Shown here one piece after another: positions 20,995 to 37,877 of a stretch of DNA of 64,000 bases. The stretch spans positions 2,751,001-2,815,000 of the forward strand of contig NZ_CP050699.1 in assembly GCF_005116675.2 (NCBI RefSeq), given 5' to 3'. The position numbers and the translations under genes were made by a program. Position 1 is the stretch's first letter. Each line of letters begins with the position of its first letter. Origin of the DNA: Desulfosediminicola ganghwensis (GTDB lineage: Bacteria > Desulfobacterota > Desulfobulbia > Desulfobulbales > Desulfocapsaceae). Below the pieces are notes generated by a model, which saw only the letters and a list, made by a program, of their open reading frames with translations, was not told the origin of the DNA and did no database searches.

Positions 20995-21071
20995 GCACCA
21001 GTAGCTCAGCTGGATAGAGCAACGGACTACGAATCCGTAGGTCGGGCGTTCGAATCGCTCCTGGTGTACCA
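20995..21071 (+). tRNA. tRNA-Arg (anticodon ACG)
   Basis: The cloverleaf is complete: acceptor GCACCAG with CTGGTGT, D arm GCTC/GAGC, anticodon stem ACGGA/TCCGT with loop CTACGAA (anticodon ACG, reading CGN Arg), T arm GGGCG/CGCTC with TTCGAAT loop, discriminator A and encoded CCA at 21069-21071. Its 3' half is duplicated perfectly at 29626, marking it as an integration site. It lies 40 bp downstream of the RNase E/G gene. Confidence 0.95.
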
Positions 21072-21082
21072 GTTATTAAAGG
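21022..21082 (+). repeat. Left attachment-site repeat (in tRNA-Arg)
   Basis: These 61 bp match 29626-29686 exactly. They run from the anticodon stem of tRNA-Arg through CCA and 11 bases beyond. The bases outside differ at both ends (A versus C before, C versus G after), which fixes the repeat borders. Confidence 0.9.
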
Positions 21083-21199: not shown

Positions 21200-22436
21200 A
21201 TTGATCGAATTTCCAAAGTAGTCTAACCGCACAAAAGTCGTACTCTTAACCGATAATTACCAAAATTCCTAAACCCATATGCTCTTCTTTGAATAAGTTT
21301 CATCTTTCGATGAAAACCCTCGAGAATACCATTGCTTCTATAATATCTGAACATTCTTGCGATTGGCTCCAGCCAACTTGTAATCGTTTTTCCAAGAGTT
21401 CGCATAGGTTTTAAAGGACTCGCCTTCAGCATTTCAACTCGTTCCAGCAGTTCGGGGATAAGTTTTTTACAAGTGGTATGGTTTTTACCCTTATTTCTGC
21501 ATAATTCAGTCAAATCCTGAGTAAATTTCCAGAGACTTTCGATCGCCGGTTGCTGTTTAAAGTATTGTTCGAGTTTCTCGCGTTTCAGAGGTGTAAGATT
21601 CTGCTTCCTAGTGCACAACATACGAATCAAGCCACCTCGTCCCCAGGCGAGATTCTCCTCATCTATGAGTTTGCAAGCTTTGGCGAAGTGGTGATTTATT
21701 AGTTTGATAACGTGAAATCTATCTGTAACTATTTTTGCGTTAGGGAACCACTTTCTGACCATCTTTCGGTAGGGGGCGTGCATATCCATGCAAACAACCC
21801 GTACTCGTTCACGTCCACGAAGAGTCTTGAGAAATGACTCCAATTCAGCTTCACTACGCCCTGGCGCTACGTCAAAGACACTGTGTTTTTCAAGATTACA
21901 AAATGTAGTAACGAACCCCATGCGCTTGGTGAAACGATGTTCGTCCAGACCAAGATATCTGGGACAAAGCCGTTCGGATCGGTGACTGATGTTCTGCAGG
22001 ACCATCTGGTGATAAAACCGCTCTACAGTGGCGACGCTGATTCCACTCTCATAGGCCGCGTCCTTATTGGAATAGCCGCGATTGCATTTATAATACACGC
22101 TGCTTTTGAGTGGTTCTGTGGATCTATTCCATTTTTTGATACCGTCCATACGGCTATTAAAGTATCTACCGCACTGTTTACAGTGGAATTTGTGGCAGCG
22201 AATGTGGAGGGTGACAGGGTGTCCCTGTTGTGGAACACTTTTGATCTCTCGCCAGAAGCTTGCCTTGATCCTTTTGTTTGAGCTGTTGCACTTGGGGCAT
22301 AGCGTGTCTTTCTTATAAACAACCTCAAGGCGGGCTGGACGGTAACTGAGCACCTTTTTGATTGAAAATCCTGCCAGCCCGATTAATAATTTCTCCATAA
22401 ATTGATCTCCTTTCTTTGGTCGGAAATTTGATCAAT
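21200..22436 (-). mobile_element. ISL3-family insertion sequence
   Basis: A single-transposase element. The proposed terminal inverted repeats are ATTGATCGAATTTCC at 21200-21214 and its near complement GGAAATTTGATCAAT at 22422-22436 (one mismatch). The transposase fills nearly the whole interval. I see no clear 8-bp target duplication, so either the ends are slightly off or one flank has been lost. Confidence 0.75.
21223..22398 (-). CDS. ISL3-family transposase
   Basis: The 391-residue protein has the ISL3 layout: an N-terminal zinc-binding region with CPKCNSSNKR and CHKFHCKQCGRYF, a helix-turn-helix region around residues 85-130 (GYSNKDAAYESGISVATVERF), and a DDE catalytic domain beginning with YLGLDEHRFTKR. 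The next catalytic region is VCMDMHAPYRK, followed by IVTDRFHVIKLIN. The closing region near NGILEGFHRKMKLIQRRAYGFRNF supplies the Glu. It appears intact and could be active. It occupies the position next to the left attachment site where an integrase gene would normally be found. Confidence 0.9.
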   Translation of the reverse strand: MEKLLIGLAGFSIKKVLSYRPARLEVVYKKDTLCPKCNSSNKRIKASFWREIKSVPQQGHPVTLHIRCHKFHCKQCGRYFNSRMDGIKKWNRSTEPLKSSVYYKCNRGYSNKDAAYESGISVATVERFYHQMVLQNISHRSERLCPRYLGLDEHRFTKRMGFVTTFCNLEKHSVFDVAPGRSEAELESFLKTLRGRERVRVVCMDMHAPYRKMVRKWFPNAKIVTDRFHVIKLINHHFAKACKLIDEENLAWGRGGLIRMLCTRKQNLTPLKREKLEQYFKQQPAIESLWKFTQDLTELCRNKGKNHTTCKKLIPELLERVEMLKASPLKPMRTLGKTITSWLEPIARMFRYYRSNGILEGFHRKMKLIQRRAYGFRNFGNYRLRVRLLCG

Positions 22437-22667: not shown

Positions 22668-22976
22668 ATGGGCAAAACTACCAACAATCAGCACGTGGAC
22701 ATCGAAAAAGAACAGGATGAGACGCTGAAAAAAATTATCTACGAAGCAGTTCTGGTTGCATTCAAGCATGATCGATCATTGGCCCTAGATCGCAATTACG
22801 AACCGTACAAGGAGAAAGAGGCGGCCAAACATTTAGGAGTCCAACCACAAACCATGGCAGCATGGCGGCATCAAGGCATTCGCCCCAAATATATCAAGGT
22901 GGGCTCAAATGTCAGGTATGAGCGCATAGATCTAGACGCCTGCAAAGAAAAGAAGAGGGTAAAGACGATCTATTAA
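22668..22976 (+). CDS. Excisionase-like helix-turn-helix protein
   Basis: A 102-residue basic protein with a C-terminal MerR/HTH_17-type winged helix: YKEKEAAKHLGVQPQTMAAW, then a wing GIRPKYIKVGSNVRYERIDLDA, the arrangement shared by phage excisionases and AlpA-like regulators. The first 45 residues are charged and helical. GAAGG lies about 10 nt before the ATG. It is followed after 65 bp by the remains of a primase-polymerase gene, the standard order in small integrative elements, so I infer a replication or excision control role. Confidence 0.75.
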   Translation: MGKTTNNQHVDIEKEQDETLKKIIYEAVLVAFKHDRSLALDRNYEPYKEKEAAKHLGVQPQTMAAWRHQGIRPKYIKVGSNVRYERIDLDACKEKKRVKTIY

Positions 22977-23041: not shown

Positions 23042-23880
23042 ATGACGAAACCTCAAAAAGAACCGCAGCTCAGGCAAGCTGTGACTACCCTAATGAATCT
23101 GGATTTCTCTGTTTTGCCGGTCAATGGCTATGACCACCCTGAAAAGCCGAAAGCGCAGATATTGTCTTCCTGGCGGTAATATCAGAAGGAGAGGCTTGAT
23201 CCTGGCAAGGTTGCCTCAGTTTTTCAGGAGGGATGCAGCCTGGCAATAATATGCGGTGCGGTATCGGGGAACCTTGAGTGTCTGGATTTTGACTCCCCTG
23301 AGTTGTTTCCACATTTTCTCAATATGCTTGAAGAGGTAACTCCTGCACTTGCTGACAGTTTGATACAGGTTCGAACTCCCTCTGGAGGTTTCCATTTACT
23401 TTATCGTTGCGAAGTGAAGGTGGATGGCAATCAGAAGCTTGCCATGTCTGAGGATGGCAAAAAGACCATCATCGAAACAAGGGGGGAAGGCGGCTATTTC
23501 CTTACTGCCCCTTCTCCAGGTTATAAAGGGCTCAAAATGATTTTTCGGGAATGCCGACTATCTCTGTCGATGATCGGGAGTTGCTGCATACATTGGCGAA
23601 GTCGCTCTCGGAAGAGATGGGTCGGGAAACCGAAGGGAGACGGGCGACTCAACCTAAGAATTGCAGGCCCGGTGATATCTTCAATCAGATCCACTCTCAA
23701 GATATTCCTGATATGCTCAAAATAAGGGCTGGAAAGATGCTGGTCGGGTGGCCAAGGGTGGCAGCTATTGGGCAAGGCCGGGTAAGGACAAGGGGACCCA
23801 TTCTGGAATTACGATGTTCCGAGAGTGGAGGTAGGGGGGAGAGAGCTATAGATGTACTGTGTGGGTTGGGCAGTGTATGA
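23042..23880 (+). pseudogene. Broken primase-polymerase (bifunctional DNA primase/polymerase) gene
   Basis: AAGGAG lies 7 nt before ATG 23042. Frame 2 reads LDFSVLPVNGYD, then meets TAA at 23177, and continues in the same frame with CGAVSGNLECLDFDS (the D-x-D metal site of the archaeo-eukaryotic primase Prim-Pol fold) and TPSGGFHLLYR. The frame shifts near 23540 to VDDRELLHTLAKSL and again near 23745 to GGSYWARPGKDKG. At least three lesions are present, so the gene is dead. Such proteins start replication of phage satellites and integrative plasmids. Confidence 0.8.
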
Positions 23881-24380
23881 AGGTCCCTGAAAAAAATCTG
23901 AGGAAGCAAAGAAAACGGCATCTAGGAGTATTTATGAGGATTTGGGGGCCACTGCACCCCACAAGGTATGGACCTGAGGAGACATCCCGCAAAAGAACTT
24001 GTATACGATTGTTTTGATATGATGAATGACAGAATGGAGTACTCTGCCTGAACCGCTCACCACTGGCGACAGCGATTGGCTATAGAGATCACAGGAATAC
24101 CCTAGGGTTTTCTGCCTTGGGGGGGGCCGATAGTGTCGTGGTATCAATCATGGTGCCTGACAATATCGTGCCACTAGGATGGAAAGCTGAGCCCAGAAAT
24201 CTGGTTAGCCTCAGGTTTGGAGAGACATTCGTAGTGTCAGGTAGAGGTTGGCACTCACTCGTTTAAGAGATATACAGAATAAGGTCAAATTGACCTTGGC
24301 ATTTTATGTGCCGCAATGTTCCCTTGACTCGAAGTAATCTAATTACGTATAAGTATATAAGTATGCTATACAAAAAAGAT
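23881..24380. other. 500-bp region with no recognisable gene
   Basis: No coding frame with family resemblance or a credible start is visible on either strand. The first part probably continues the decayed primase gene. The last 100 bases become AT-rich, fitting a promoter just before the riboswitch aptamer, although I cannot name -35 and -10 boxes with confidence. Confidence 0.45.
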
Positions 24381-24447
24381 AAACTCAAACCTGCCGTGAG
24401 GCAGGGACGGCAAAGCTATGGACTTGCAACCGACAGCCGAGCTGCCT
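24381..24447 (+). promoter_or_regulatory. GEMM (c-di-GMP-I type) riboswitch aptamer, variant
   Basis: The sequence shows the GEMM layout in order. CTCAAACC enters a hairpin with stem CCTGCC (24390-24395) and GGCAGG (24400-24405) closed by the GNRA loop GTGA. Then comes the joining segment GGACGGCAAAGC (24405-24416) and a second arm starting TATGGACT and closing with CAGCCGAGCTGCC (24434-24446). Known aptamers of this class bind c-di-GMP or cGAMP. The joining segment reads GACGGCAAAGC where the common form is GACGCAAAGC, an extra G next to the ligand pocket. The next plus-strand gene is the secreted protease at 25236, separated by transposase remains. Confidence 0.8.
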
Positions 24448-24513
24448 AATTTTACAAGGTAGTCCAGTCTATTAATTTAGGATGCGTACAGATCATTTAC
24501 TTTAAGTGAATAC

Positions 24514-25167
24514 TCAACCGCCTAGAAGGCGGCTTTGTGAACTTATGGTAAAAGTGTCATCGCGGGATCGCTGCTGTAAATTTTGTGTCGCAATGTATTG
24601 CATGATCACATCATCAATTATTAACCCATAAGCTGATAAGCGGACATGCAATTCAGCATCTACAAAAGCTATATTTCCGATATTGCTTTCTTTATGAAGA
24701 CGCCACTGTACGGCAATCAATGACCATCTTAATACATTGCCGGAGCGGGCTATGAAATATCCGCAAGCCCACAATTAACGACCCCCAAATTGTTTTGATA
24801 AGCGCCTGTTTACTGAAAGTAATTTTCGTGAGGCTTTGCCTTTATTAAGACGAAACCTGATTAGACGACATCAACCAAGACTCTCCAAAACGCTTTGTGA
24901 CCGTATTTACGCAGATTAGTTATCTGGTAGTGTCTGGTAATCAGTTTTGTTCTTAAGAAGACGCGTTCTTCTTAATAATCCTTCTCACAAGCTTACTGAC
25001 AGATAAATGTGACGGAATCGATAAAAATAAATGCACATGATCTTTGGAGACGTGACCTTTCAATAATTCAATATCGCAAGAGATTTACAAATTTCTCTCA
25101 TCAAGTCACGAGTTCGGACGGACACTTCTCCAAAGAGAACCGGTTTACGATATTTTGTAATACCGAA
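24514..25167 (-). pseudogene. Remnant of IS200/IS605 transposase tnpA
   Basis: Read on the minus strand, pieces of a Y1 HUH transposase appear in order. TKYRKPVLFGEV starts near 25165; a frame change leads to LLKGHVSKDHVHLFLSIPS (the HVH metal site), then about 110 bp of unrelated sequence. KGKASRKLL and SKQFGG follow, a stop, then LWACGYFIARSGNV. A further extra stretch of about 33 codons precedes IDDVIMQYIATQ. The N-terminus is missing. A perfect hairpin CCGCCT-AGA-AGGCGG at 24518-24532 near the far end resembles the subterminal hairpins of this family. No tnpB is present. Confidence 0.8.
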
Positions 25168-25235
25168 TAAAGTACTCGCCTCGGAGCGAGGGATTTTCGC
25201 CCATTCCCTGATCAGGACATTAAAGGAGAGCAGCC

Positions 25236-27929
25236 ATGAAATTTCCATTATCAAGTCTTTTATCTGTACGCTGTATCAATGTCTTTTTCCTAGCAACAAC
25301 AATGCTCATATCCCAAATCGCGTACAGTGTCGAAGTACAAATGGCCCCTTCACATCCTGGGGAAATAGGGTTGCAGAAAGCTGGCGCCATGGCCAAGGCC
25401 GGCCCGGCTCTCAACAAGGTTTTTGCGGAACACCAAGCCCATCTCAAGGCTCAGCCAAAGCAGCACTTTACTCCCGGCAATCCCTTCCTGCAGTACGCTC
25501 CCGGTAAAATTGTCATCGATGCAGTTGCGTCAGGAGATGGCAATATTCTTCTCCATGACTTGAAAGGGTTGGGACTTAAGCAGGGTGCCAGGGCAGGTCG
25601 CATTGTTTCGGGTTGGCTTCCTCTCGGGATCATTAAAAAGGCATTAGACCTGGAAAGCCTTCGTTTCATCTCAGCCTCCTATCGTCCAGTAACCAATGCG
25701 GGCGACGTCACAAGTCAGGGCGATGTTGCCATGTATGCTGACGAGGCCCGCCGTATCTACGAGCTCGATGGTGCCGGAATCACTGTGGGCGTATTGTCAG
25801 ACAGCTATGACCAACAAAATGGTGCTGCGGCTGATGTGACAAGTGGAGATCTTCCTGGCGGTATAATTAATCTCGACGATTCGGCAAGTTGCGGAAGCTT
25901 GCTTCCGGAACCCTGTACGGACGAAGGCAGGGCAATGATGCAGATCGTCCATGACGTGGCCCCTGGTGCCGGGCTTGCCTTCCACACAGCTTTTACAGGA
26001 ATGGCCAATTTTTCCCAGGGTATTCGCGATCTGGCGGAAACGGCTCCCGAAGGTGGTAACGCGAAGGTCATCGTTGATGACGTGATGTATTATGCTGAGC
26101 CGATGTTCCAAGACGGAATCATTGCCAAGGCTGTGGACGATGTCGTCGCTGGCGGCGCGGCGTATTTCTCCGCCGCAGGAAACCAGGCACGGAAAAGTTA
26201 TGAGCAGGACTATGTATCCAGCGGTGAACCTCTGAATATCGACAGCCTACTGTCAACCAGATTTGTCGGTATTTTGCACGATTTTGACCCTGGCGAATCG
26301 GTGGACTGGCTGCAGAGTATTAGTGTACTCAACGGCACATGCATTGTCGTCAGCCTGCAGTGGGATCAACCGTTTGGTTCTCTTGCCGGTGGAAACGGTT
26401 CGCAAAGTGACCTCGATATCTATTTGATTGATGGCGATGAGAGCAGCATGACAATCCTTGAGAAAAGTGACTCCGACAACGTCCTAAGTGGCGACCCTGT
26501 TGAGTTACTCCAGTTCTGCAATACTGCAAATTATTCCAACTTGAATCTCCTGATTTCATACTTTTTTGAACCTGATCCAGGAAGCAGTTACGATACCTGG
26601 GAACCGCCGATCCCAACATTTATGAAATACGTATATTTTGGCAGTATGACGGTCAACGAGTATGCAACCGACAGCAGTACATTGTACGGCCACGCAAATG
26701 CGGCCGGGGCTGAGGCGACAGGGGCAGCGTATTACATTGAGACCCCAATGTTTTATAATGATCCACCACTTCTTGACTACTTTTCATCGGCTGGCGGTAC
26801 GCCTATTTCGTTTTCATCCACTGGAAGCCGTCTGCCAACACCAGAGGTGCGGGAAAAACCCGAAATTGTGGCCCCCAATGGTGTTGATACCACCTTCTTC
26901 TATCCGACAAGTGACAGGAACAGCAATGGAATACCAGACTTTTCCGGCACCTCGGCAGCTGCCCCCCACGCTGCAGCTGTCGCTGCGCTGATGCTTGAGG
27001 CAAACATGATGGCCACACCCGACAGTATATACACAGCTCTAGAGCAAACTGCCGTCGATATGGAATCTACTGACTTTGACTTTGACAGTGGCTGGGGACT
27101 GGTAAAGGCTGATGATGCCGTTGACGCTATCCTGGTCAGCAACATTCCTCCCACAGCTAATTTTACTTATACAACCAACTATCTGAATGTCGATTTTACT
27201 GACCAAAGCACCGATGACGGCTCAATTGTGTCTTGGAACTGGAACTTTGGGGACTACGACACCTCAACCACTCAAAACCCGACTCACACCTACGAATCTG
27301 CCGGCAGCTACAACGTCACCCTTACAGTGACTGACGACGGTAGTGCTGCAGACAGTAACACCCAGGTTGTGCTGGTAACGACACCATCTGATTGCAACTT
27401 TGATGGAATCTGTGATGCCGGTGAAGATTGCAACAATTGTCCTGACGACTGCATCAGTGGTGACGGAGTTGCCGAATGCGGTAATGGTATCTGTGAGGCC
27501 AGCGCAGGCGAAGATTGTACTAGCTGTCCGGCGGACTGTAATGGCAAGCAGGTAGGGGCGGATAAGCGTCAGTTCTGCTGCGGTGACATCTACTCCACCC
27601 CTGGCACCAACCCCGTAAGCTGTGATGATGCCCGCTGTACGGAAGCCGGTTGGTTGTGCAGTGATGCACCACCTGTAAGTTACTGCTGTGGCACTGATGG
27701 CTGCACTGGCGCTGAAAATGGATTCAACTGTGCAGTTGATTGTGGTCTGACTGAGACAATTTGTAACGATGAAATTGATAACGATGAAGACGGTTACTTT
27801 GACTGTGACGACCCCGACTGTGATGGAGATGCGTCCTGCACAAGCTGTCGGCTCAGGGGCGAATCTTGCGCGGATGACAATGAGTGCTGCTCGACTGATT
27901 GCCACCCCATAAAAGGTACCTGCAAGTAA
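25236..27929 (+). CDS. Secreted S8/S53-like serine peptidase with PKD domain and cysteine-rich tail
   Basis: An 897-residue exported protein with a signal peptide at about 1-31. The peptidase region has TVGVLSDSYD (Asp189) and FSGTSAAAPHAAAVAAL (Ser573). The segment between, DEGRAMMQIVHDVAPGA, has Glu230 where classical subtilisins carry the HGT histidine, suggesting a sedolisin-like Ser-Glu-Asp triad. A PKD domain follows (about 640-718, with WNWNFGD and HTYESAGSYNVTLTV). The tail has over 30 cysteines, repeated GNGICE...CTSCPADC units, a MopE-like IDNDEDGYFDCDDPDCD, and a knottin-like C-terminus. Its upstream region holds a GEMM aptamer. It lies inside the tRNA-Arg island. Confidence 0.85.
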   Translation: MKFPLSSLLSVRCINVFFLATTMLISQIAYSVEVQMAPSHPGEIGLQKAGAMAKAGPALNKVFAEHQAHLKAQPKQHFTPGNPFLQYAPGKIVIDAVASGDGNILLHDLKGLGLKQGARAGRIVSGWLPLGIIKKALDLESLRFISASYRPVTNAGDVTSQGDVAMYADEARRIYELDGAGITVGVLSDSYDQQNGAAADVTSGDLPGGIINLDDSASCGSLLPEPCTDEGRAMMQIVHDVAPGAGLAFHTAFTGMANFSQGIRDLAETAPEGGNAKVIVDDVMYYAEPMFQDGIIAKAVDDVVAGGAAYFSAAGNQARKSYEQDYVSSGEPLNIDSLLSTRFVGILHDFDPGESVDWLQSISVLNGTCIVVSLQWDQPFGSLAGGNGSQSDLDIYLIDGDESSMTILEKSDSDNVLSGDPVELLQFCNTANYSNLNLLISYFFEPDPGSSYDTWEPPIPTFMKYVYFGSMTVNEYATDSSTLYGHANAAGAEATGAAYYIETPMFYNDPPLLDYFSSAGGTPISFSSTGSRLPTPEVREKPEIVAPNGVDTTFFYPTSDRNSNGIPDFSGTSAAAPHAAAVAALMLEANMMATPDSIYTALEQTAVDMESTDFDFDSGWGLVKADDAVDAILVSNIPPTANFTYTTNYLNVDFTDQSTDDGSIVSWNWNFGDYDTSTTQNPTHTYESAGSYNVTLTVTDDGSAADSNTQVVLVTTPSDCNFDGICDAGEDCNNCPDDCISGDGVAECGNGICEASAGEDCTSCPADCNGKQVGADKRQFCCGDIYSTPGTNPVSCDDARCTEAGWLCSDAPPVSYCCGTDGCTGAENGFNCAVDCGLTETICNDEIDNDEDGYFDCDDPDCDGDASCTSCRLRGESCADDNECCSTDCHPIKGTCK

Positions 27930-28102: not shown

Positions 28103-28264
28103 CTCTTACGGAATAGCCTCCAGAGCCCGTCCATCGTCACTTCAGGAAAAAAAGCTACTGAAAAGTTGCGCCATTTCAGGCGAACCGGATGCACAATTGA
28201 TGTGGTAGCAATTTAATGGACACTTCGTTAAGAGTGAAATGTCAATTCTTAAGGGATGTTATCC

Positions 28265-28561
28265 ATGAACAAACGAACCAGAAGAAAATTTACAGATGAA
28301 TTCAAAGATGAGGCAGTTAACCTTATCACTGAACAAGGATATTCTATAGCTGAAGCTGCCAGAAACCTTGGAGTAAATGCAAATCTGCTAGGTAGATGGA
28401 AGAAGGAAAGAGAAAATCCAGCTGAAGAACCGGCAGAGGCAGGAGGAATGACAGCATTGCAAGCAGAACTCAAACGACTCCGCAAAGAGAATAAGCAGCT
28501 GAAGATGGAGCGGGAAATACTAAAAAAGGCAGCGGCCTTCTTCGCTAAGGAACAGGAGTGA
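28265..28561 (+). CDS. IS3-family transposase OrfA
   Basis: A 98-residue DNA-binding subunit. It begins [18 protein letters not shown], continues with a helix-turn-helix ([20 protein letters not shown]) and ends in a leucine-zipper-like coiled coil ([20 protein letters not shown]). I start at ATG 28265 since AAGGG at 28251-28255 is 9 nt upstream, while the ATG at 28256 abuts it. OrfB overlaps its stop, as usual for programmed -1 frameshifting in IS3 elements. Confidence 0.9.
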
Positions 28562-29430
28562 GGTATCAGTTTATTGATACCGAGAAGGAGGTTTATCCCA
28601 TCTCCTTGTTGTGCAATGTAATGCAGGTCAGCCGAAGCGGATTTTATTCATGGTCTTGTCGAGATAAGTCAAACAGGGAAAAGGATCGTGAGCGTTTGGT
28701 TCCCAAAGTCAAAGCGATTCACCGTGAGGTAAAAGGTTCTTATGGGGCTCGAAGGATCTCTGAAGAACTGACAATTGCTGGTGAGCCATGTGGCCGTGTC
28801 AAAGCCGCTACTCTCATGAAATTGGCTCAGGTGACGGCAAAACAGAAAAAGCGATTCAAAGCTACAACAGATAGTAAACACAATCTGCCGGTCGCCCCGA
28901 ATTTTCTGAATCGCAATTTTACTACATCTAGGCCAGAAAGCGTATATTATTCTGATATTACGTATATCTGGACTACAGAGGGTTGGTTGTATCTGGCTGT
29001 TATCATTGACTTGTTTTCCCGCAAAGTTGTTGGATGGTCACTTAACAAGAGAATGACTAAAAAGCTTGTTATCAATGCTTTGCAGATGGCCATTTGGCGT
29101 CGTCGTCCTTCGCCAGGCTTAATCTTTCATTCTGATCGTGGCAGTCAGTATTGCAGTAAAGATTTTCAGCTCTTACTCAGAAAAAATCAGATGAAATGCA
29201 GCATGAGTCGCAAGGGTGAGTGTTGGGATAATTCAGTTGCTGAAAGCTTTTTTGGTAGTCTGAAAACTGAGCGGATATTTGGTTCATACTATCTCACTAG
29301 GAAGCAGGCCAAGTAGGATGTAATTGATTACATCGAGATGTTTTACAACAGCAAAAGACGTCACTCTTATTTGGGGTATCTCAGTCCAAATGATTTCGAA
29401 AAAGAGACGGAGTTGAAGAAAGCAGCCTAA
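28558..29430 (+). pseudogene. IS3-family transposase OrfB, nonsense mutation
   Basis: The DDE integrase core is clear: [21 protein letters not shown] and [19 protein letters not shown] supply the D, D and E. The frame stops at TAG 29314-29316 just after RKQAK, but continues in the same frame with DVIDYIEMFYNSKRRHSYLG to TAA 29428-29430. One substitution therefore removes the last 38 residues. The frame opens with GTG 28558, overlapping orfA. The element is probably inactive unless the stop is read through. Confidence 0.85.
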
Positions 29431-29500: not shown

Positions 29501-29625
29501 AAAAACACCAAAAAAGATCAAATTAGCTCTAATTCTAGCCCTGGTCTTACCTCTCTAAGCTCACCTATGTCAATGTTAAATCATAATAAATTAATTTTTA
29601 AGTACTTTTGTAAAAATACCCACAC

Positions 29626-29686
29626 ACGGACTACGAATCCGTAGGTCGGGCGTTCGAATCGCTCCTGGTGTACCAGTTATTAAAGG
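29626..29686 (+). repeat. Right attachment-site repeat (tRNA-Arg 3' fragment)
   Basis: An exact 61-bp copy of 21022-21082. It begins in the anticodon stem and includes the T arm, acceptor 3' strand and CCA but lacks the tRNA 5' half, so it is not a gene. It marks the right border of the island. Confidence 0.9.
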
Positions 29687-29717
29687 GGTTGCAACCAATT
29701 GGTTGTAACCCCTTTTT
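29682..29717 (+). terminator. Original tRNA-Arg terminator
   Basis: AAAGGGGTTGCAACC pairs with GGTTGTAACCCCTTT over an AATT loop and is followed by further T. It is now separated from its tRNA by the island. Confidence 0.85.
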
Positions 29718-30016
29718 CTTTTTATTCTATGCCGGTTCTTGCCTGTCGTCGATTCTTGCCTGAAGAGACATAGAAGCCTCTCATAAGGCATTCAGCTTAC
29801 ACCAAATGCTATTTTCTCAGCGACCCCGGATAAGGTTATGATTTCTCATTTGCGACCTGAAGCCGAGGAGAACGCACGGCACTTGGGTTACGCATCTGCT
29901 ATGGAGTATTTAAGAACCATGGTGTAGCCTTAATTATAAAGGTGAAAATAGAGGTATTTCCGCGTCGACAGTAATTATCTTTCCCATCAGGATGGAGGAC
30001 AACTCAAGTTAGCCTC
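29718..30016. other. Intergenic region before the sigma-54 activator gene
   Basis: No recognised gene. A 29-codon frame with ATG 29838 (starting MISHLRPEAEENARHLGYAS) has AAGG close upstream, but no family is recognised and it may be a fragment. GGAGG about 20 nt before the regulator start is followed by a long AT-rich gap. Confidence 0.4.
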
Positions 30017-31723
30017 ATGAGAAAAAAAATCTTAGTGGTTGACGATGAAGAAAGCATTCGCCTTTCCTTCAGTGTGTTTCTCTCAGAAGAAGGTTATGAG
30101 GTCGGCACCGCCAGCAGCATTGAAGACGCAGTAGAGTTATTGAATAGCTGTATCTATGATCTGCTAATTGCCGATACAGGCACAGGTGTTGAGACAGGTG
30201 GAAACCTGCTGAAGACTGCAAAATTTTTACAACCTGCCACCCCGGTGGTGATGATCACCGATGATTCAGAAATTGAAGCTGCTGCAGAAGCATTTCGCAA
30301 TGGTGCGTTTGATTATATAATCAAGCCAATTAACCTCGACACTTTGCTGCGGGTCGCTAAAAAAGCCCTGAAGCATAGAGCCATTGAACACGAAAAGGAA
30401 CGCCGCAGGCTAAATTACGAAGCTGTTTTCAAAAGCGTAAAGGCCGGAATTATTACCGTAGACAGATCAATGATGATTACTGACATTAATGATGCGGCCG
30501 GCCGCCTTCTTGTTATTCGGCGTGATAATGCTGTTGGCAGGCATGTATCACGCTTGGCCAGTCACTGTGGCGGGAGATTTGTTCATATTGTCAAAGAGAT
30601 CCTGGAGCAGAAACAAGAGCTGAACGACAGATTCATCGAATGTCATTGCATGCGGAATCCCCGCCAGGTGATCAGTCTGGCTGCCTCACCATTGTTTGGT
30701 GCGAATGAGGAACTCTCAGGTTCGGTGTTGCTGGTTCGAGATGAAAGCAGCCATCATGAACTGAAGAGCAGCCGTAAGGATTGTCATGACCTGGAGCGAA
30801 TTGTCGGAAAGAGTGAAGCAATACGTCAAGTGAAGGCCCTGGTCCGGGAATTGGCAGATGTCCAGAGCACGGTACTGATAACTGGTGAGAGTGGTACCGG
30901 CAAGGGACTGGTGGCTGAGGCCCTCTACCGGCTCAGTAGCCAGTTTGATCGCCCACTGGTAAAAGTTAATTGTGCAGCACTCTCGGAAACACTGCTGGAA
31001 AGCGAGTTGTTTGGTCACGTCCGGGGCGCTTTCACCGGTGCTGTCGCCGATAGAATTGGAAGATTTGAGTTGGCTGATGGCGGTACTATCTTTTTGGACG
31101 AGATAGGTGAAATCTCACCGTGTATGCAGCTACGCCTTCTGCGGGTGATAGAATCAGGTGAGTTTGAGCGCGTTGGTGACTCAAAGACCGTCCAGATGAA
31201 CATGCGAGTAGTGGCGGCTACCAATCAGGAACTGACCCAAAAAGTTGAAGCAGGAGCTTTCAGGAAAGACCTGTATTATCGTCTCAAAGTTGTAGAAATC
31301 AAACTTCCTTCCCTCAGAGAGCGACTTAACGACCTCCCCCTTTTGATCGATCATTTCCTGTATAAGTTCAACCGACTCTTTTCCAGTAAAATAACTGGAT
31401 TGTCGACAAGCGTTTTGGATGTGCTCAGGTTGCATTCTTGGCCTGGCAACATACGTGAACTGGAAAATACTCTTGAGCATGCCTTCGTGCTCTGCCGGAA
31501 GGGTATCATCACAATGGACCACTTACCGCCGGGCTTTCGCCATATTGCCCGCAAAATAAATTCCACACTGGAAATAGGCGACGAAAAGATGGAGGCCGCA
31601 TGTATTCGTCGGGCCCTTGTCCATGCGGATTGGAATAAAACAAAAGCCGCAGCTATTCTTGGCGTAAGCCGTCGAACTATCTACCGCAAAATTGAACAGC
31701 ACAAAATCTTTCCCCTGAACTGA
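30017..31723 (+). CDS. NtrC-family sigma-54-dependent response regulator
   Basis: A 568-residue transcription activator. Residues 1-120 are a receiver domain with acidic pair DDEE (9-12), phosphoacceptor Asp53 in LLIADTG and Lys103 in IIKP. Residues 130-240 look like a PAS domain. The AAA+ domain has Walker A GESGTGKG (290-297), the sigma-54-contacting GAFTGA loop (337-342) and Walker B FLDEIGE. A Fis-type helix-turn-helix ends the protein (NKTKAAAILGVSRRTIYRKI). No histidine kinase gene is adjacent, so its partner lies elsewhere. Four palindromes begin 12 bp after its stop, ahead of two exported-protein genes that are its likely targets. Confidence 0.9.
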   Translation: MRKKILVVDDEESIRLSFSVFLSEEGYEVGTASSIEDAVELLNSCIYDLLIADTGTGVETGGNLLKTAKFLQPATPVVMITDDSEIEAAAEAFRNGAFDYIIKPINLDTLLRVAKKALKHRAIEHEKERRRLNYEAVFKSVKAGIITVDRSMMITDINDAAGRLLVIRRDNAVGRHVSRLASHCGGRFVHIVKEILEQKQELNDRFIECHCMRNPRQVISLAASPLFGANEELSGSVLLVRDESSHHELKSSRKDCHDLERIVGKSEAIRQVKALVRELADVQSTVLITGESGTGKGLVAEALYRLSSQFDRPLVKVNCAALSETLLESELFGHVRGAFTGAVADRIGRFELADGGTIFLDEIGEISPCMQLRLLRVIESGEFERVGDSKTVQMNMRVVAATNQELTQKVEAGAFRKDLYYRLKVVEIKLPSLRERLNDLPLLIDHFLYKFNRLFSSKITGLSTSVLDVLRLHSWPGNIRELENTLEHAFVLCRKGIITMDHLPPGFRHIARKINSTLEIGDEKMEAACIRRALVHADWNKTKAAAILGVSRRTIYRKIEQHKIFPLN

Positions 31724-31734
31724 CAATGTCGTAG

Positions 31735-31801
31735 TGTGACTGTGTCACAATAAAATGTGCCATGGCACGGACTGTGCCATGGCGGGAGTGTGACATGGCA
31801 C
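31735..31801. promoter_or_regulatory. Array of four palindromes, probable activator-binding sites
   Basis: Four related palindromes are packed into 67 bp. TGTGAC-TGT-GTCACA is at 31735-31749; GTGCCATGGCAC, perfect over 12 bp, is at 31757-31768; GTGCCATGGCGG is at 31774-31785; GTGACATGGCAC is at 31790-31801. Centres of the last three are 16-17 bp apart. They stand between the sigma-54 activator and the exported-protein gene at 32125, the position of upstream activating sites for such regulators. Assignment to this regulator is inference. Confidence 0.7.
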
Positions 31802-31923
31802 AGTCTAGGGGCAATGTCGTACCGGTAATTTCTCCAGGTTCTAACTCATAACTAAATCCTAACATTTTGTTGCATCACGCCTTCTTCGATATCAGCTTAC
31901 CATAAACGAAATTAAATCCCACC

Positions 31924-31939
31924 TGGTACACCTTTTGAA
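31924..31939 (+). promoter_or_regulatory. Weak candidate sigma-54 promoter
   Basis: TGGTACACCTTTTGAA resembles the -24/-12 consensus TGGCAC-N5-TTGCA, but has T for C in the -24 box and GA instead of GC at -12. Its distance of about 120-190 bp from the palindrome array is right for an enhancer-type arrangement. The -12 mismatch makes it uncertain. Confidence 0.3.
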
Positions 31940-31980
31940 TGGCTCTTAAGCAGTTACAAAGGAATCCCTGCAGAACTTGT

Positions 31981-32006
31981 ATGTGCCTCATATCTCAGAG
32001 GCACAT
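31981..32006. other. Leader hairpin before the exported-protein gene
   Basis: ATGTGCCTC (31981-31989) pairs with GAGGCACAT (31998-32006) around an 8-nt loop. It is not followed by a T run, so it is more likely a leader stability or regulatory element than a terminator. It lies 118 bp before the start codon. Confidence 0.45.
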
Positions 32007-32124
32007 GTCGCTCTAATGCTCTGTGCAGACGTTTCTCAAAGATACACGGAGACTTACAGCAGACCTGGAGATGACTTGGCGAGGTGTTCACAAAAAAGTT
32101 GAACAAATTAAAAAGAGGGGGGAT

Positions 32125-33990
32125 ATGAGAAAAATCCGATCGATTTCACTGATGCTGTTTGTACTCTGCTTCATAGTTCCAGCAATGGCAATAGCTGGCA
32201 AAGGCTTCATGGGAGGCAAGGGGACGGTTGTGGCTGATGAGCCACCTGAGGACACAGGGGGGGCGGGAGGATCCGAAGGTCCAGTCAACGATAAAAAATC
32301 CGATGCGGGCAAATTGTATGGAGATCTGTACAAGGTTTTGCGCCAGGCAGGGGGGGCGGGAGATACCAAACTGGTGCCGGACGGGGATGGGAATCTTGAA
32401 GTGGGATACAACACCATCGGTGGCGAGCCTGTTCTGACAGTTATTGATCCAGAAGACCTGGATGGGAGGGCCTCCATCCGTGAGGATTATGGTTGGTACG
32501 CAAAGCTCAATGCGGATGGGACGTATGAACTCGCCCAGTCTTCCTCCCCGGCCCTTTGTGTGCAGCCTGTGGCCAGCTATGAGCGGTGGGGGGATATCTC
32601 TTCAAAGACAGGGCTGACCAAAAACCGGCTGCCGCTGATCATCACCTACGACCCAACCTGGGGAAGGTCAGAGTGTGAGGTAGGGAAACTCACTGCTGAT
32701 CCTACTGTCAATCTGGCGACAGGTGAACTCACCCTCACGGTCGAACAGTACTTTATCAAGCCGGGTGGAACCTGGACGGATGCGGTTAATGGGACAGTCA
32801 CATATGCCAATGGCGTGCTCTGGACTGATCTCATTGAGGAGGTGCACTTTGGTCGTCTGAACCTGAGCAGGGCCCCTGAGGCAGTGCTGCAGTCCGCCTT
32901 TGACGAGGCGATCAACACTATCAACAGCCCGGACACAGTGGGTATTGAGCTTGATGCCGCAGGGCGGATTCTGCTGGAGAAAAATGTTTATGACGACATT
33001 CGTGTTGAGTCAAACGGTGAGCCTATGTTGCTCGGCACGATAAAAAAAGCGATCGACTCGCCTCTGGAGAATGTGGCTCTGTACCTGAAGCTCATGAAAG
33101 ATGGCCACCTGGTGACCCCGTCAGTTGAGCGGATGCCCATAGACCGCTCACTTCATGGGGGAATTCCGCTGTGGAAACTGCTGGAACTGGAAGACGGCCC
33201 GGCTGATGCCTCACTCAGGCCGACTATCGATATCGAAAAAATGGAAGCTTGGGGATTGAGCAACCTGGTGGATGTGTCTGCAGTAGACTACTACTCCTAT
33301 TACCAGTGTACGGGCGTTGATGATGAGCCAACAGCATGCTTGTGTCCGAGTTCTGACTCGGTAGAGACTGAACATGATGGTGAGGTAATGTGCGCTGATG
33401 TGGTTGACCGCCAGCTGGCTACCGCTGCCGTCTGCCCGGCGGATGAAACATGTTTTGGTCCATTTTACGGGATAACGGCTCCCGATGGTGGCGCACCTGA
33501 TGCTGCAGATCTCAGCTTCGCGGCAAGCTTTTTGGCCGCCGGTGCTGACAAAACCGGTGATATCAGTGTCGACATGATTGTGTACCTCAACTCCATCCTT
33601 GGAATCAACAAGGTGGTTGGCTACAGCAGTTATGATGATAATGGGGAACCGACAGGCGATGCAGTCAGCTATGAGGATAACCCCGTGTATTTCGATTTCA
33701 ACGTGGTCAGTAACTATTCTCGTGAAAATACCTTCGCGGCTCGTGGTGCCGGGGGCTTTGTCACAGTGCTGCAAGGGGAATCTCCGGATTGGAAGGAGAC
33801 TGGGGTCGAGATCACTGGGGCACAGTACGGGGAAGGAATTCCAATTTTCAATAACCTCGGCAAGGGGAGCGGTGGCTTCCCCAATGGGCAGCCGGCTGCT
33901 GACAATATCCAGGGCTTTACCCAGGAGGCGGACGATGACCTGAGCGTCATTGAATTTGTCCACACCTATCAGATTCCAGGATTGAGGTGA
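32125..33990 (+). CDS. Exported protein of unknown function, 621 residues
   Basis: No family recognised. I start at ATG 32125, where a typical signal peptide begins (MRKIRSISLMLFVLCFIVPA, cleavage after AIA) and AGAGGGGGG lies just upstream; an earlier in-frame ATG at 32023 adds a charged non-signal stretch. The mature protein starts Gly-rich, is acidic, has no membrane segment and carries a small cysteine cluster around residues 390-450 (QCTGV, CLCPSS, VMCAD, VCPADETCFGP). It looks like a secreted or periplasmic structural or binding protein. It follows the palindrome array and is paired with the next large exported gene; the two are likely co-regulated. Confidence 0.75.
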   Translation: MRKIRSISLMLFVLCFIVPAMAIAGKGFMGGKGTVVADEPPEDTGGAGGSEGPVNDKKSDAGKLYGDLYKVLRQAGGAGDTKLVPDGDGNLEVGYNTIGGEPVLTVIDPEDLDGRASIREDYGWYAKLNADGTYELAQSSSPALCVQPVASYERWGDISSKTGLTKNRLPLIITYDPTWGRSECEVGKLTADPTVNLATGELTLTVEQYFIKPGGTWTDAVNGTVTYANGVLWTDLIEEVHFGRLNLSRAPEAVLQSAFDEAINTINSPDTVGIELDAAGRILLEKNVYDDIRVESNGEPMLLGTIKKAIDSPLENVALYLKLMKDGHLVTPSVERMPIDRSLHGGIPLWKLLELEDGPADASLRPTIDIEKMEAWGLSNLVDVSAVDYYSYYQCTGVDDEPTACLCPSSDSVETEHDGEVMCADVVDRQLATAAVCPADETCFGPFYGITAPDGGAPDAADLSFAASFLAAGADKTGDISVDMIVYLNSILGINKVVGYSSYDDNGEPTGDAVSYEDNPVYFDFNVVSNYSRENTFAARGAGGFVTVLQGESPDWKETGVEITGAQYGEGIPIFNNLGKGSGGFPNGQPAADNIQGFTQEADDDLSVIEFVHTYQIPGLR

Positions 33991-34021
33991 TCGCTGGAAT
34001 ACGTCTCGCCATATCGGTCGA

Positions 34022-34058
34022 CCCGTGCGCTGCCGCCCTCTTGGCGGTGGTGCACGGG
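34022..34058 (+). terminator. Strong hairpin between the two exported-protein genes
   Basis: CCCGTGCGCTGCCGCC and GGCGGTGGTGCACGGG form a 16-nt imperfect stem around CTCTT. The following bases are only moderately T-rich (ATCTTTTCTG). It may be a terminator or a processing/attenuation hairpin that sets the ratio of the two products. Confidence 0.5.
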
Positions 34059-34202
34059 TTGCCATCAAATCTTTTCTGTTCGGCATAGAATTGTTGACAC
34101 CGCTCTATCGGTAGCAGGACTCTGATTGTATTGCGAACATGGAAGATGATCTATGCGGTACCGGTGATTGCTCTATTCATTCTTGCAAAAGGAGAAGATG
34201 CA

Positions 34203-37200
34203 ATGAGAAAACATCACATTATCTATGTATTGTTCGCAATATGCTTGCTCTTGTCGGCTCTTGTCAGCTTTGCGGCAAAGCCGGTTCCGGTACCTGACGG
34301 AACCGGCTTTTTGACCGGAAAAGTTTCGATTGCCGGTTCGAAAGTTGCGATTGAGGGGGCGGAAGTGACCGCGGTCGGTACGGATGAACCGAAGGTCGCT
34401 GTCACTGGGAGTGAAGGTACATACTCTATGTATCCCATTGCCGGTGACTACAACGTCACCGCCACGGCGGCAGGCTATAACAGCCAGACCTTCTCTGTGA
34501 CGGTCAGAGACGGGAGGAAATCCAAGGTCAACTTTGCACTATCTGAAGCAGTTGCTGTTACTGGCACCATCACCGGAAAAGTGACTGACGGAGATGGAAC
34601 TCCGATGGATGGAGTAGAGATTGCGACCAGTTCCGGTGGCTATGGCGACATAACAGAAAATGGTGGGGAGTTTTCCATGGTTGTGGCGGCCGGCGTCTAC
34701 GACCTCAACGCATCTCTTGCCGGTTATCAACCGGCAACACAGAGTGGTGTTACGGTGGAGGTAAACCAGACCGTGACGGTTGATTTTTCACTCAATGCGC
34801 TTCCTGCAGGGTTGAGCATCACCTCACTTACTGCATCTCCCGACTCATTCCAGGAGGCCTCCATTGCAGAAATCACGCTGACAGCTACTCTAACTGGCCA
34901 GGCCACCGAATATTCCTGGACACAACTTTCCGGCCCAAAAGTTCCCCTGGCTTCCGCTCAAACGACTGCAACCGCTGATGTCAGCGGCCTTGAGGTGGCC
35001 GCAGAGTGTGAACTGGTGTTCGAGCTGAAAGTAAGCGACGGGGCTGCTTGGACAGCTGAAACTGTTACGGTGCTGGTTCAACCAGTCGATATGCTGCAAT
35101 ACCCAGCACCGAATGTACAGCTCGGCGGATCAACCACCGCTGTTGCCCGCTTTCAATATGGAGGTGAAGAGTGGTGCCTGTTTAATATCGGTACAGCGCT
35201 CAAGGCAACTCCGGTCGGTATGAGCAAAGGAGAGGTTTACCAGATCATCCTGCCAGGCTTTGTTTATGACATTGAGATTATTGAGTACGAAGGTCTGACG
35301 TACGCTCTGATCGCCAATGGTAATGCCGGTGTGACCGTGGTCGATATTTCTGATCCTGCGACGATGGCGGTAAGGAGTGTTACGCCTGTCAACTTCTACT
35401 TTGATGATGTCATCTTCGCGGAGGGCGGCGGCGCCATTCTCTATGACAACATTTTTCAAAGCGATGCCGGGCCGGTCGTGGCCCTGGCCACGGATGGCCA
35501 GAACCTCTACATCGGCGATCACGATTTTGGCATCCACAAGACATCACTGTTGAATGTCTTCAATAATGCAACAGAGACTGCTGATGGCACATTACTTATC
35601 GACCAGGAGGTGTTGACCGTTCAATACGCCGGCGAGCATGCTTGGGGCGGTCCGATCTCGCTGAAAATGTACGGCGGCAAACTGTTTGCGGGCCTGGGTG
35701 CTCTCGGCATGGGTATTTTCGACCCCGAGACTTTGGAGCAAACCGGTCGCTACAATCTGTACATCGATGAAGCACGGATTGAGGATTATTTTGGGGGAAT
35801 GGCCCTGAGCCAGACAGTGCAGGGCGATCCGGATACCGGTGATCTCTATCTCGACGCCTTCACCGGCATGCCCGATTATCGACAGGTCAACTACGAGATT
35901 GAATCAATAATGCATGCCAATGCTGAGGGTGATACCCCCTGGGCCGACTTTGAGCGGGAGGGCAAATGGTACTACGAGGCGGTCGATGTCGATGTGGCCC
36001 AGCAAGATAATCGCACAATCGCCTATATCGCATATTCTCTCGGCGGCGTTATCGCAGTCGATGTTACAGGCTTCGAAAACTTCACGGCAGAAGGGTTTCA
36101 GAGCGTTCCCTACCTCGGTTATTTCGTAGCGGTACCGGCCAATGGTCCATATGATACCGGTTCCCAGCCATCCAGCCTGTTGCCCTATGAGGGGGCCGGG
36201 ATGTTGAAAGAATCCGGAGTATTGAGCGTCAACGTTCGAGACGACCGACTGTTTCTGACCGATCACTTCGCTGGCATGGTTATCCTCGAAGGTGCAGGTA
36301 GCCCGGAAAACTGGGTTGCAGATGGTGCTCCATTCAACAACGACACCGACAACATCCCAGGCAACAATGTGCCGGAATTTGAAGATGTCACCAGTTACGA
36401 TATGTCGCCATGGGATTTGACCGATAACGAATCCTTGCCCTGGGCGTATTATCAAGCGCCATGTGAACTGGCGACCCGGGAACTGGAAGGGCATGGCTAT
36501 GCTCTTGCCTTGATGGACAATATCGATCTCTACACTTCCGGGCAGATTGACGTGCTCGAATGCTCGACCGCCGGCGGCTTTGTTTTTGTTGATGTCACCA
36601 ATATCGAGGCAGAAGTGATGACCGATCGTTTCGAAATCGCGGTCTATTTCCCTTCAACCGACGAAGTTGGTGCGGCTCCCGATGGTACTGCCACCGACAC
36701 CATAGCTATCGGACATACTGACGGCATTACAGCAACCGATAATTACATCTATGTCTCAGACGGTCCTCACGGTATAACGGCTTGGAAAATCACGAATGAA
36801 TCAGGTTATCCAACTGATTCTGTTCATGTTGTCGGCAACACGATCCAGGATGAATATCCTGTTGAAGTCGATGGCGAGCTGATCTATCCAGCGTCACATA
36901 CGGTGCGCAATGTTATCGACCCGAGCGGAGATTACACCTGGGCGCTCTGCGTGGGAAACGGTATCCGCCGGGTGCCGATCGCTGACATCGAAGCGGGTTT
37001 GGGTGAGGTTGGCTCGCCCATGTTGATGAAATTGCATATCGACGACAGTTTCGAGCACAATGGCGATTGGGGAGTGGTGAAAAAACTCAACTTCCAGGAT
37101 CAGGCCTATGACCTGGAATTTCTTGGCAACTACGCCTACGTTGCGGATGGCACCAATGGCTTGACCGTCTATGACACTTCCAAGAATCCGACTGATGCTC

Positions 37201-37877
37201 ATAGTGGTTTTTTTGTCGGTAATATCGGCTACAACAAGGGAAGCCCACTTCTTGGCACCGCCTCGGGCATCGAACTCTGGACCGATCCTGCAACTAACAG
37301 ACTCTATGCTGTTCTTGCCTGCGGTCCCTATGGGGTTGGTGTTGTTGACGTTACTGATGTCAATAACATGCAGATTGTAAAAGTCTTCGAGCCAAAAAAA
37401 TATGAAGGCGATGATCTCGGCTCAGCTGACGGTCAGGCCATAGACCTTGAAGTCGTGGGTGATATAGCATACTACGGGTACGACAGCTTCGGTCTCGTTG
37501 CCTACAGCATGAATGACCTGATCAGCCCGTTACCGGCGGGGGTCGATCCAACCGAGCTTTTCAAAAAAGAAGCTGATGGGTCAGTCATTTACGACTACCG
37601 TCCGGAGTTCCTCGGTAAGTTTAAACTCCAGGAGGTTGTGGGTTATGAAGATGTTGATGGTGGCAGCGTTAAAATGACCTATACCCAGCAATCTGGAAAA
37701 CTCTATTTTTATACGGCATTCGGTCATTACGGAGTAGTCAAAATCGATTTCACCAACCCGGCCGAACCGGTGTTGCTGGATGCTATTTCGACGGCGGCAG
37801 AGTGTGTGGATGTTGAAATTTCCAATGGCCGCCTTTATGTGGGCGATCACGGTGGTGGACTCGTTTTGTTTAAATAG
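34203..37877 (+). CDS. Large exported protein: carboxypeptidase-regulatory-like domains plus LVIVD beta-propeller
   Basis: A 1224-residue exported protein with start chosen at ATG 34203, where AGGAG lies about 7 nt upstream and a signal peptide begins (HHIIYVLFAICLLLSALVS). Two CarboxypepD_reg-like beta-sandwich domains follow (about 33-110 with GTYSMYPIAGDYNV, and 120-200 with GVYDLNASLAGYQP), then an Ig/PKD-like domain (about 205-300). From about 310 to the end are repeated LVIVD-type blades: NAGVTVVDISDP, NGLTVYDTSKNP, YGVGVVDVTDV, YGVVKIDFTNPAEP. Few cysteines and no anchor are seen. Likely an outer-surface or periplasmic binding scaffold; substrate unknown. Confidence 0.8.
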   Translation: MRKHHIIYVLFAICLLLSALVSFAAKPVPVPDGTGFLTGKVSIAGSKVAIEGAEVTAVGTDEPKVAVTGSEGTYSMYPIAGDYNVTATAAGYNSQTFSVTVRDGRKSKVNFALSEAVAVTGTITGKVTDGDGTPMDGVEIATSSGGYGDITENGGEFSMVVAAGVYDLNASLAGYQPATQSGVTVEVNQTVTVDFSLNALPAGLSITSLTASPDSFQEASIAEITLTATLTGQATEYSWTQLSGPKVPLASAQTTATADVSGLEVAAECELVFELKVSDGAAWTAETVTVLVQPVDMLQYPAPNVQLGGSTTAVARFQYGGEEWCLFNIGTALKATPVGMSKGEVYQIILPGFVYDIEIIEYEGLTYALIANGNAGVTVVDISDPATMAVRSVTPVNFYFDDVIFAEGGGAILYDNIFQSDAGPVVALATDGQNLYIGDHDFGIHKTSLLNVFNNATETADGTLLIDQEVLTVQYAGEHAWGGPISLKMYGGKLFAGLGALGMGIFDPETLEQTGRYNLYIDEARIEDYFGGMALSQTVQGDPDTGDLYLDAFTGMPDYRQVNYEIESIMHANAEGDTPWADFEREGKWYYEAVDVDVAQQDNRTIAYIAYSLGGVIAVDVTGFENFTAEGFQSVPYLGYFVAVPANGPYDTGSQPSSLLPYEGAGMLKESGVLSVNVRDDRLFLTDHFAGMVILEGAGSPENWVADGAPFNNDTDNIPGNNVPEFEDVTSYDMSPWDLTDNESLPWAYYQAPCELATRELEGHGYALALMDNIDLYTSGQIDVLECSTAGGFVFVDVTNIEAEVMTDRFEIAVYFPSTDEVGAAPDGTATDTIAIGHTDGITATDNYIYVSDGPHGITAWKITNESGYPTDSVHVVGNTIQDEYPVEVDGELIYPASHTVRNVIDPSGDYTWALCVGNGIRRVPIADIEAGLGEVGSPMLMKLHIDDSFEHNGDWGVVKKLNFQDQAYDLEFLGNYAYVADGTNGLTVYDTSKNPTDAHSGFFVGNIGYNKGSPLLGTASGIELWTDPATNRLYAVLACGPYGVGVVDVTDVNNMQIVKVFEPKKYEGDDLGSADGQAIDLEVVGDIAYYGYDSFGLVAYSMNDLISPLPAGVDPTELFKKEADGSVIYDYRPEFLGKFKLQEVVGYEDVDGGSVKMTYTQQSGKLYFYTAFGHYGVVKIDFTNPAEPVLLDAISTAAECVDVEISNGRLYVGDHGGGLVLFK

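Follow-up and report, generated by a model that had tools for sequence, protein, structure and literature searches.

The locus analyzed here raises the question of whether a GEMM-type aptamer with unusual letters in its ligand pocket, located in a mobile island upstream of a protease gene, is a riboswitch for another ligand, or a c-di-GMP riboswitch of an ordinary kind in the course of being lost. The window, i.e., the whole stretch of 64,000 nucleotides, was considered together with 38 genomes sampled from the genus, family and order, the own genome among them; c-di-GMP-I aptamers are present in 22 of these, with 91 matches in total. The aptamers examined comprised 74 of these 91, from 22 genomes; the remaining 17 all belong to a single genome (G031). 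Positions within the aptamer follow the Vc2 numbering, as mapped by us from the Rfam alignment.

Identity and descent of the aptamer

The sole c-di-GMP-I match in the window lies on the forward strand (Table 1) and was detected by cmscan with an E value of 1.9e-4 for the 64-kb window. The own genome (5.65 Mb, one contig) contains eight c-di-GMP-I matches, among which the window copy is the second weakest (E 4.1e-6). Its closest relative at the DNA level is a GEMM-I copy of a sister species (L018, genome G003); the two share 77.6% of their letters across 98 nt (E 5.8e-10), in an alignment that extends past the aptamer and into the terminator. Identity that runs beyond the aptamer, combined with the Rfam match, indicates that the homology is real. 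To judge by the sequence, the window RNA descends from the RF01051 family, its working membership being only putative.

The description of the element as GEMM-type in an earlier, sequence-only reading is borne out by the RF01051 score above the gathering threshold and by the homology to L018. In the covariance-model search proposed there, the RF01051 cut-off was passed; the variant model RF03167 (c-di-GMP-I-GGC), run with permissive settings, fell short of its cut-off of 59, at 45.7 bits. All of the GEMM-I landmarks had been credited to the element, and the joint GACGGCAAAGC, the GNRA-capped stem and the closing GCCGAGCTGCC are indeed present, but CU precedes CAAACC and G20 is lost. The textbook motif has GG at this site, and the copies of the lineage mostly have GC; the loss of G20, a ligand-contacting position, had been overlooked.

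Table 1. Features of the aptamer, its island and the neighbouring genes, in window coordinates
Feature	Position	Strand	Basis
tRNA-Arg gene	20995-21068		Rfam scan; Arg from ACG anticodon by eye
attL-like direct repeat, 61 bp (tRNA-Arg 3' part and flank)	21022-21082	+	exact repeat
ISL3-family transposase	21223-22398	-	Pfam
Small HTH_17 protein, putatively excisionase-like	22668-22976	+	Pfam
Broken Prim-Pol (primase/polymerase) gene, part	23303-23725	+	Pfam
Promoter-like TTGACT-18-TATAAG, adjoining aptamer upstream	24324-24353	+	by eye
c-di-GMP-I (GEMM-I) aptamer, probably decayed	24374-24449	+	RF01051, 40.4 bits (gathering 35)
C and T replacing G20 (ligand contact) and C21/G21 (pairs with 46)	24384-24385	+	alignment with relatives
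Fully paired P2 stem, GUGA (GNRA) loop	24390-24405	+	Rfam alignment, pair check
Extra C between G46 and A47	24411	+	by eye; absent from the other 73 aptamers
Decayed terminator overlapping 3' aptamer strand	24435-24478	+	homologous to the intact terminator of L018
IS200/IS605 relic	24504-25197	-	Y1_Tnp pieces, copies in genome G008, translation
S8 peptidase (897 aa, open frame) carrying a PKD domain	25236-27929	+	Pfam
Transposase pair (HTH_Tnp_1; rve), IS3-like	28256-29316	+	Pfam
attR-like direct repeat (61 bp) at the right island end	29626-29686	+	exact repeat

The pocket in the lineage and in the window copy

Position 20 is G in 65 of the 74 aptamers, A in seven, U in one and C in one, the last being the window copy. 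At position 21, 49 copies have C, 22 have G, two have U and one has A. By eye, C21 is accompanied by G46 and G21 by C46 throughout the 74 aptamers, with one G21/G46 mismatch (L239). The commonest form in the lineage is GCCAAACC...GACGGAAAG, in which the pair beside the pocket is flipped to C21-G46, and GACGG is the form most often seen. Across the class, a pattern with G20 in the normal frame and both positions of the pair left free matched in 85 of 257 genomes, and among the matches listed the free positions can, by eye, form a pair. The flipped pair is frequent in the class (49/74; e.g., L002, L003, L004, L005 and L014).

An unusual extra G had been singled out as the departure from the motif. 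This letter is half of the flipped C21-G46 pair and part of the commonest joint of the lineage, GACGGAAAG, and was rejected as a novelty; measured against the lineage, the additional letter is a C (24411). The pocket is thus altered, as had been claimed, but by other letters: G20 is replaced by C (24384), C21 by U (24385), and the C at 24411 is additional. Both C20 and the extra C occur once among the 74 aptamers, in each case in the window copy, and the U21-G46 pair is shared with one other copy, L234.

In the excerpt of PMC4744006, G20, A47 and C92 are given as ligand contacts, and mutation of G20 in Vc2 is stated to lower binding 30,000-fold; for the double mutant G20A_C92U, an excerpt of a simulation paper (PMC9049102) quotes 4900 nM versus 0.011 nM. 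In the window copy the first of these contacts is C, and A47 is present with the extra C just before it. The UGCC stretch, which we take to hold C92 on our Vc2 mapping, is unchanged.

The state at position 20 in cGAMP riboswitches is A, which is seen in seven copies of the lineage (L006, L016, L215, L221, L237, L239 and L240), and U20 is seen in L233; both types of signal may coexist in the lineage. Four copies of the own genome, including G000:C1:1454077-1454150, score above the RF03167 (GGC) cut-off and, in our own mapping, read A at position 47 where the consensus has G. The Rfam GGC label may be misleading for these four.

Scaffold and expression platform

Standard pairs account for 18 of the 20 in the window copy, with 21-46 as U-G, and the two broken pairs compare with 0-4 in 39 relatives. 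P2 and outer P3 are well preserved, and two of the three inner P3 pairs are broken. Two of 29 conserved columns are changed, or three if G20 is counted (G in 35 of the 39 relatives, marginally below the 90% conservation line), in addition to the extra C; in a leave-one-out comparison, the relatives show 0-5 such changes. The scaffold is ordinary and no worse preserved than those of the relatives. A consensus promoter scan, which requires a T at the end of the second hexamer, returned no promoter. The ordinary scaffold and the surviving promoter-like site upstream (Table 1) speak against decay; they imply that it is recent, or else that something is still under selection.

In relatives of the same type, the 3' strand of the aptamer also serves as the 5' terminator arm, and such an overlapping terminator was found in 45 of 49 C21 copies versus 2 of 22 G21 copies. 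The threshold applied (-10 kcal/mol or lower, and at least five T among the 9 nt that follow the stem), which was set post hoc with the output already seen, was passed by 46 of the 51 other non-G21 copies and by 2 of the 22 G21 copies; the five that failed were L008, L029, L232, L237 and L240. The window copy also fails, with seven pairs, -7.1 kcal/mol, three T in 9 nt and no U tract, and thus lacks a working overlapping terminator of the C21 form. When the stretch is folded alone, the local fold z score is -0.04, compared with -6.70 for L018. The terminator letters are AAGGCAGTCCGGCTTTTTTTTT in L018 and AAGGTAGTCCAGTCTATTAATTT in the window, where the stem is shortened and the U tract lost; as read from these letters, the window terminator is a worn-down version of that of L018. 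No other expression platform was seen in the stretch downstream of the aptamer.

Two further observations concern other copies. L008 (G000:C1:3123794-3123891), the weakest c-di-GMP-I match of the own genome (39.9 bits), carries no terminator, lies near a frame that by eye resembles the end of a multicopper oxidase, and is perhaps another decayed copy. L226 and L227 (G007:C69:5305 and 5685) are near-identical GEMM-I copies in tandem, 380 bp apart, each with its own terminator.

Searches for relatives sharing the variant

No aptamer with C20 in the normal frame was found in 257 genomes of the class. The pattern CAAACC N6-16 GGACGGCAAAGC, which holds the extra-C string, matched only the own genome among these 257; elsewhere, it matched 16 stretches in viral contigs and at least 120 in genome contigs, where about 80 chance matches are expected in the genome collection by our estimate. 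Among the best 45 of 141 pattern matches, nine GEMM-like loci were recognized by eye and hairpin energy, all of which are titled Clostridia and have G21. Rfam models gave 12 matches on these nine loci, of which 11 were c-di-GMP-I (six at the pattern and five at neighbouring aptamers).

The eleven letters GACGGCAAAGC thus also occur in good clostridial c-di-GMP-I aptamers, in which Rfam places a one-base bulged G and the G21-C46 pair is kept; position 20 in these is mostly G, with A in two L146 matches and in L198. The string by itself is therefore no mark of a new pocket, and the window copy, being without G21, differs from the clostridial aptamers that carry it. Four of them (L206, L094, L184 and L202) have joint letters identical to those of the window copy but keep G20, G21 and C46, where the window copy reads CU at the first two. 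A family sharing the variant was accordingly rejected: none was found in the class (257 genomes), and the clostridial look-alikes among the best 45 of 141 matches keep G21. The short pattern AAACTCAAACC was also set aside as uninformative, occurring in 211 of the 257 class genomes, about as frequently as its reversed control. The variant that had been suggested to mark a separate ligand class was seen once, and in no relative searched.

Comparison with known systems

The window copy shares with the C21-G46 form of c-di-GMP-I (RF01051) the P2 stem with its GNRA loop, P3, the CAAACC and AAAGC joints and the closing strand. A terminator overlapping the 3' strand is common to both, though decayed in the window. 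The copy differs from this form in C20, U21, the extra C before A47, the two broken inner P3 pairs and the lack of a U tract. The c-di-GMP-I-GGC family (RF03167) belongs to the same Rfam clan as RF01051, but its consensus has CGAA where the window copy has GCAAA. The 3',3'-cGAMP (GEMM-Ib) variants of Geobacter, which have A20, are changed at the same specificity position as the window copy. The latter departs from them in having C rather than A there (24384), together with an insertion, and none of the relatives searched shares this combination. According to an excerpt of PMC9481103, the cGAMP variants differ by one key pocket nucleotide, which is left unnamed there.

The island and the protease

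An integrated element had been proposed, and the exact 61-bp repeat of the 3' part of the tRNA-Arg gene on both sides of the aptamer supports this, delimiting an island of 8.6 kb. No integrase gene was found among the island proteins scanned with Pfam, which represent part of the island frames. An element GTTACATGCCG(T/G)TTACATG is present near both ends of the island (21121 and 29482), and these repeats are possibly integrase arm sites.

The aptamer is adjoined by a broken IS200 and a broken Prim-Pol gene, a context of decay. The right end of the IS200 relic, at 24504, corresponds to the end of a 587-588-bp element, which is identical in three compared copies of genome G008; its left end was not found. 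Pieces of the transposase lie in different frames (24965-25072 and about 25063-25197); their Y1_Tnp matches cover positions 12-39, at 17.4 bits and so short of the cut-off (23), and positions 41-77, at 32 bits. A DNA search of the spacer against the own genome gave, beyond the spacer itself, matches of 29-33 nt only.

The downstream gene on the same strand is an S8/PKD protease, as had been noted; the protease domains are present, whereas its secretion is judged from the N-terminus by eye. The gene begins 786 nt past the aptamer, with the IS200 relic in between, while the own genome has seven other copies, and for six of these the next ORF (at least 80 aa) begins about 50 to 200 nt past the aptamer, L008 giving no clear reading. 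No full-length relative of the protease was found in 24 genomes, and the majority of the matches covered the PKD part. The nearest relative (G004:C2) has 41% identity over 158 residues plus a C-terminal piece, and its contig contains no c-di-GMP-I match. The protease may once have been a target of the aptamer, an old link that the relatives neither show nor exclude. In view of the decayed terminator, the intervening relic and the length of the gap, the proposed cyclic-dinucleotide control of the protease is unlikely.

Probable decay of a c-di-GMP riboswitch, and alternatives

These findings are best explained by a decaying c-di-GMP-I riboswitch of the usual kind of the lineage, probably inert, and not by a new ligand class, a reading that we hold with considerable confidence. 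From their anatomy, the intact relatives would be ON switches, in which ligand binding holds the 3' strand in the aptamer and transcription continues. In the window copy, G20, a ligand contact, is replaced by C, the pair next to it is reduced to a weaker U-G, and the extra C stands beside A47; half of the terminator stem and the U tract are gone, and an IS200 that inserted about 55 nt past the aptamer has since decayed, leaving the next gene at its present distance. Both ligand binding and regulation have probably been lost.

A c-di-GMP riboswitch that, though weak, continues to work in spite of these changes is improbable, yet the least so of the alternatives: the RF01051 cut-off is passed, nine of the 91 matches found in relatives have lower scores, L234 has the same U21-G46 pair, and Vc1 retained some binding, not fully eliminated, after a change of its G20 equivalent (excerpt of PMC4744006). 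Against it, G20 and the terminator are both lost, with no other expression platform seen downstream. A working riboswitch that controls the protease through a changed pocket (C20, extra C) and another ligand would accord with the good preservation of P2 and outer P3 despite the altered pocket, and with the standing of position 20 as a known specificity position, occupied by A in 7 of the 74 lineage copies. It is nevertheless quite unlikely, given a variant found once and in no relative searched, the absence of a working terminator, the relic and distance before the protease gene, and the nearest relatives of that gene. Slightly less probable still is a single-copy new specificity in a mobile island, with the GEMM-I scaffold kept and the pocket (C20, U21-G46, extra C) rebuilt for a ligand that is neither c-di-GMP nor cGAMP; the support for such a new ligand class would be the changed pocket itself and nothing further. 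Chance resemblance of a non-homologous sequence to GEMM-I, which the modest Rfam score of 40.4 bits might suggest, is refuted by the genome-scale E value and by the identity to L018 beyond the aptamer, and we give it hardly any weight.

The decaying riboswitch would thus represent a clear case of such an element caught in the course of loss, with intact relatives in sister species for comparison. It also carries a caution: an Rfam score above the threshold, together with a single letter at odds with the textbook motif, is not enough to establish a new ligand class, and the normal form of the lineage and the expression platform need to be checked before such a class is claimed. Should the pocket bind a ligand after all, the specificity position would admit C as well as G and A.

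A neighbouring operon

We considered whether the operon at 32023-37877 had lost this aptamer as its leader and rejected the idea: nothing in the window corresponds to the leader in G003, and the gene is located beyond the island. No GEMM-I element was found at 29600-34300 of the window. The gene at 34131-37877 has an ortholog in G003 (75% identity over 1225 aa), which is located about 400 nt behind a GEMM-I copy with a terminator (L033). The control of one gene may thus differ between species of a genus.
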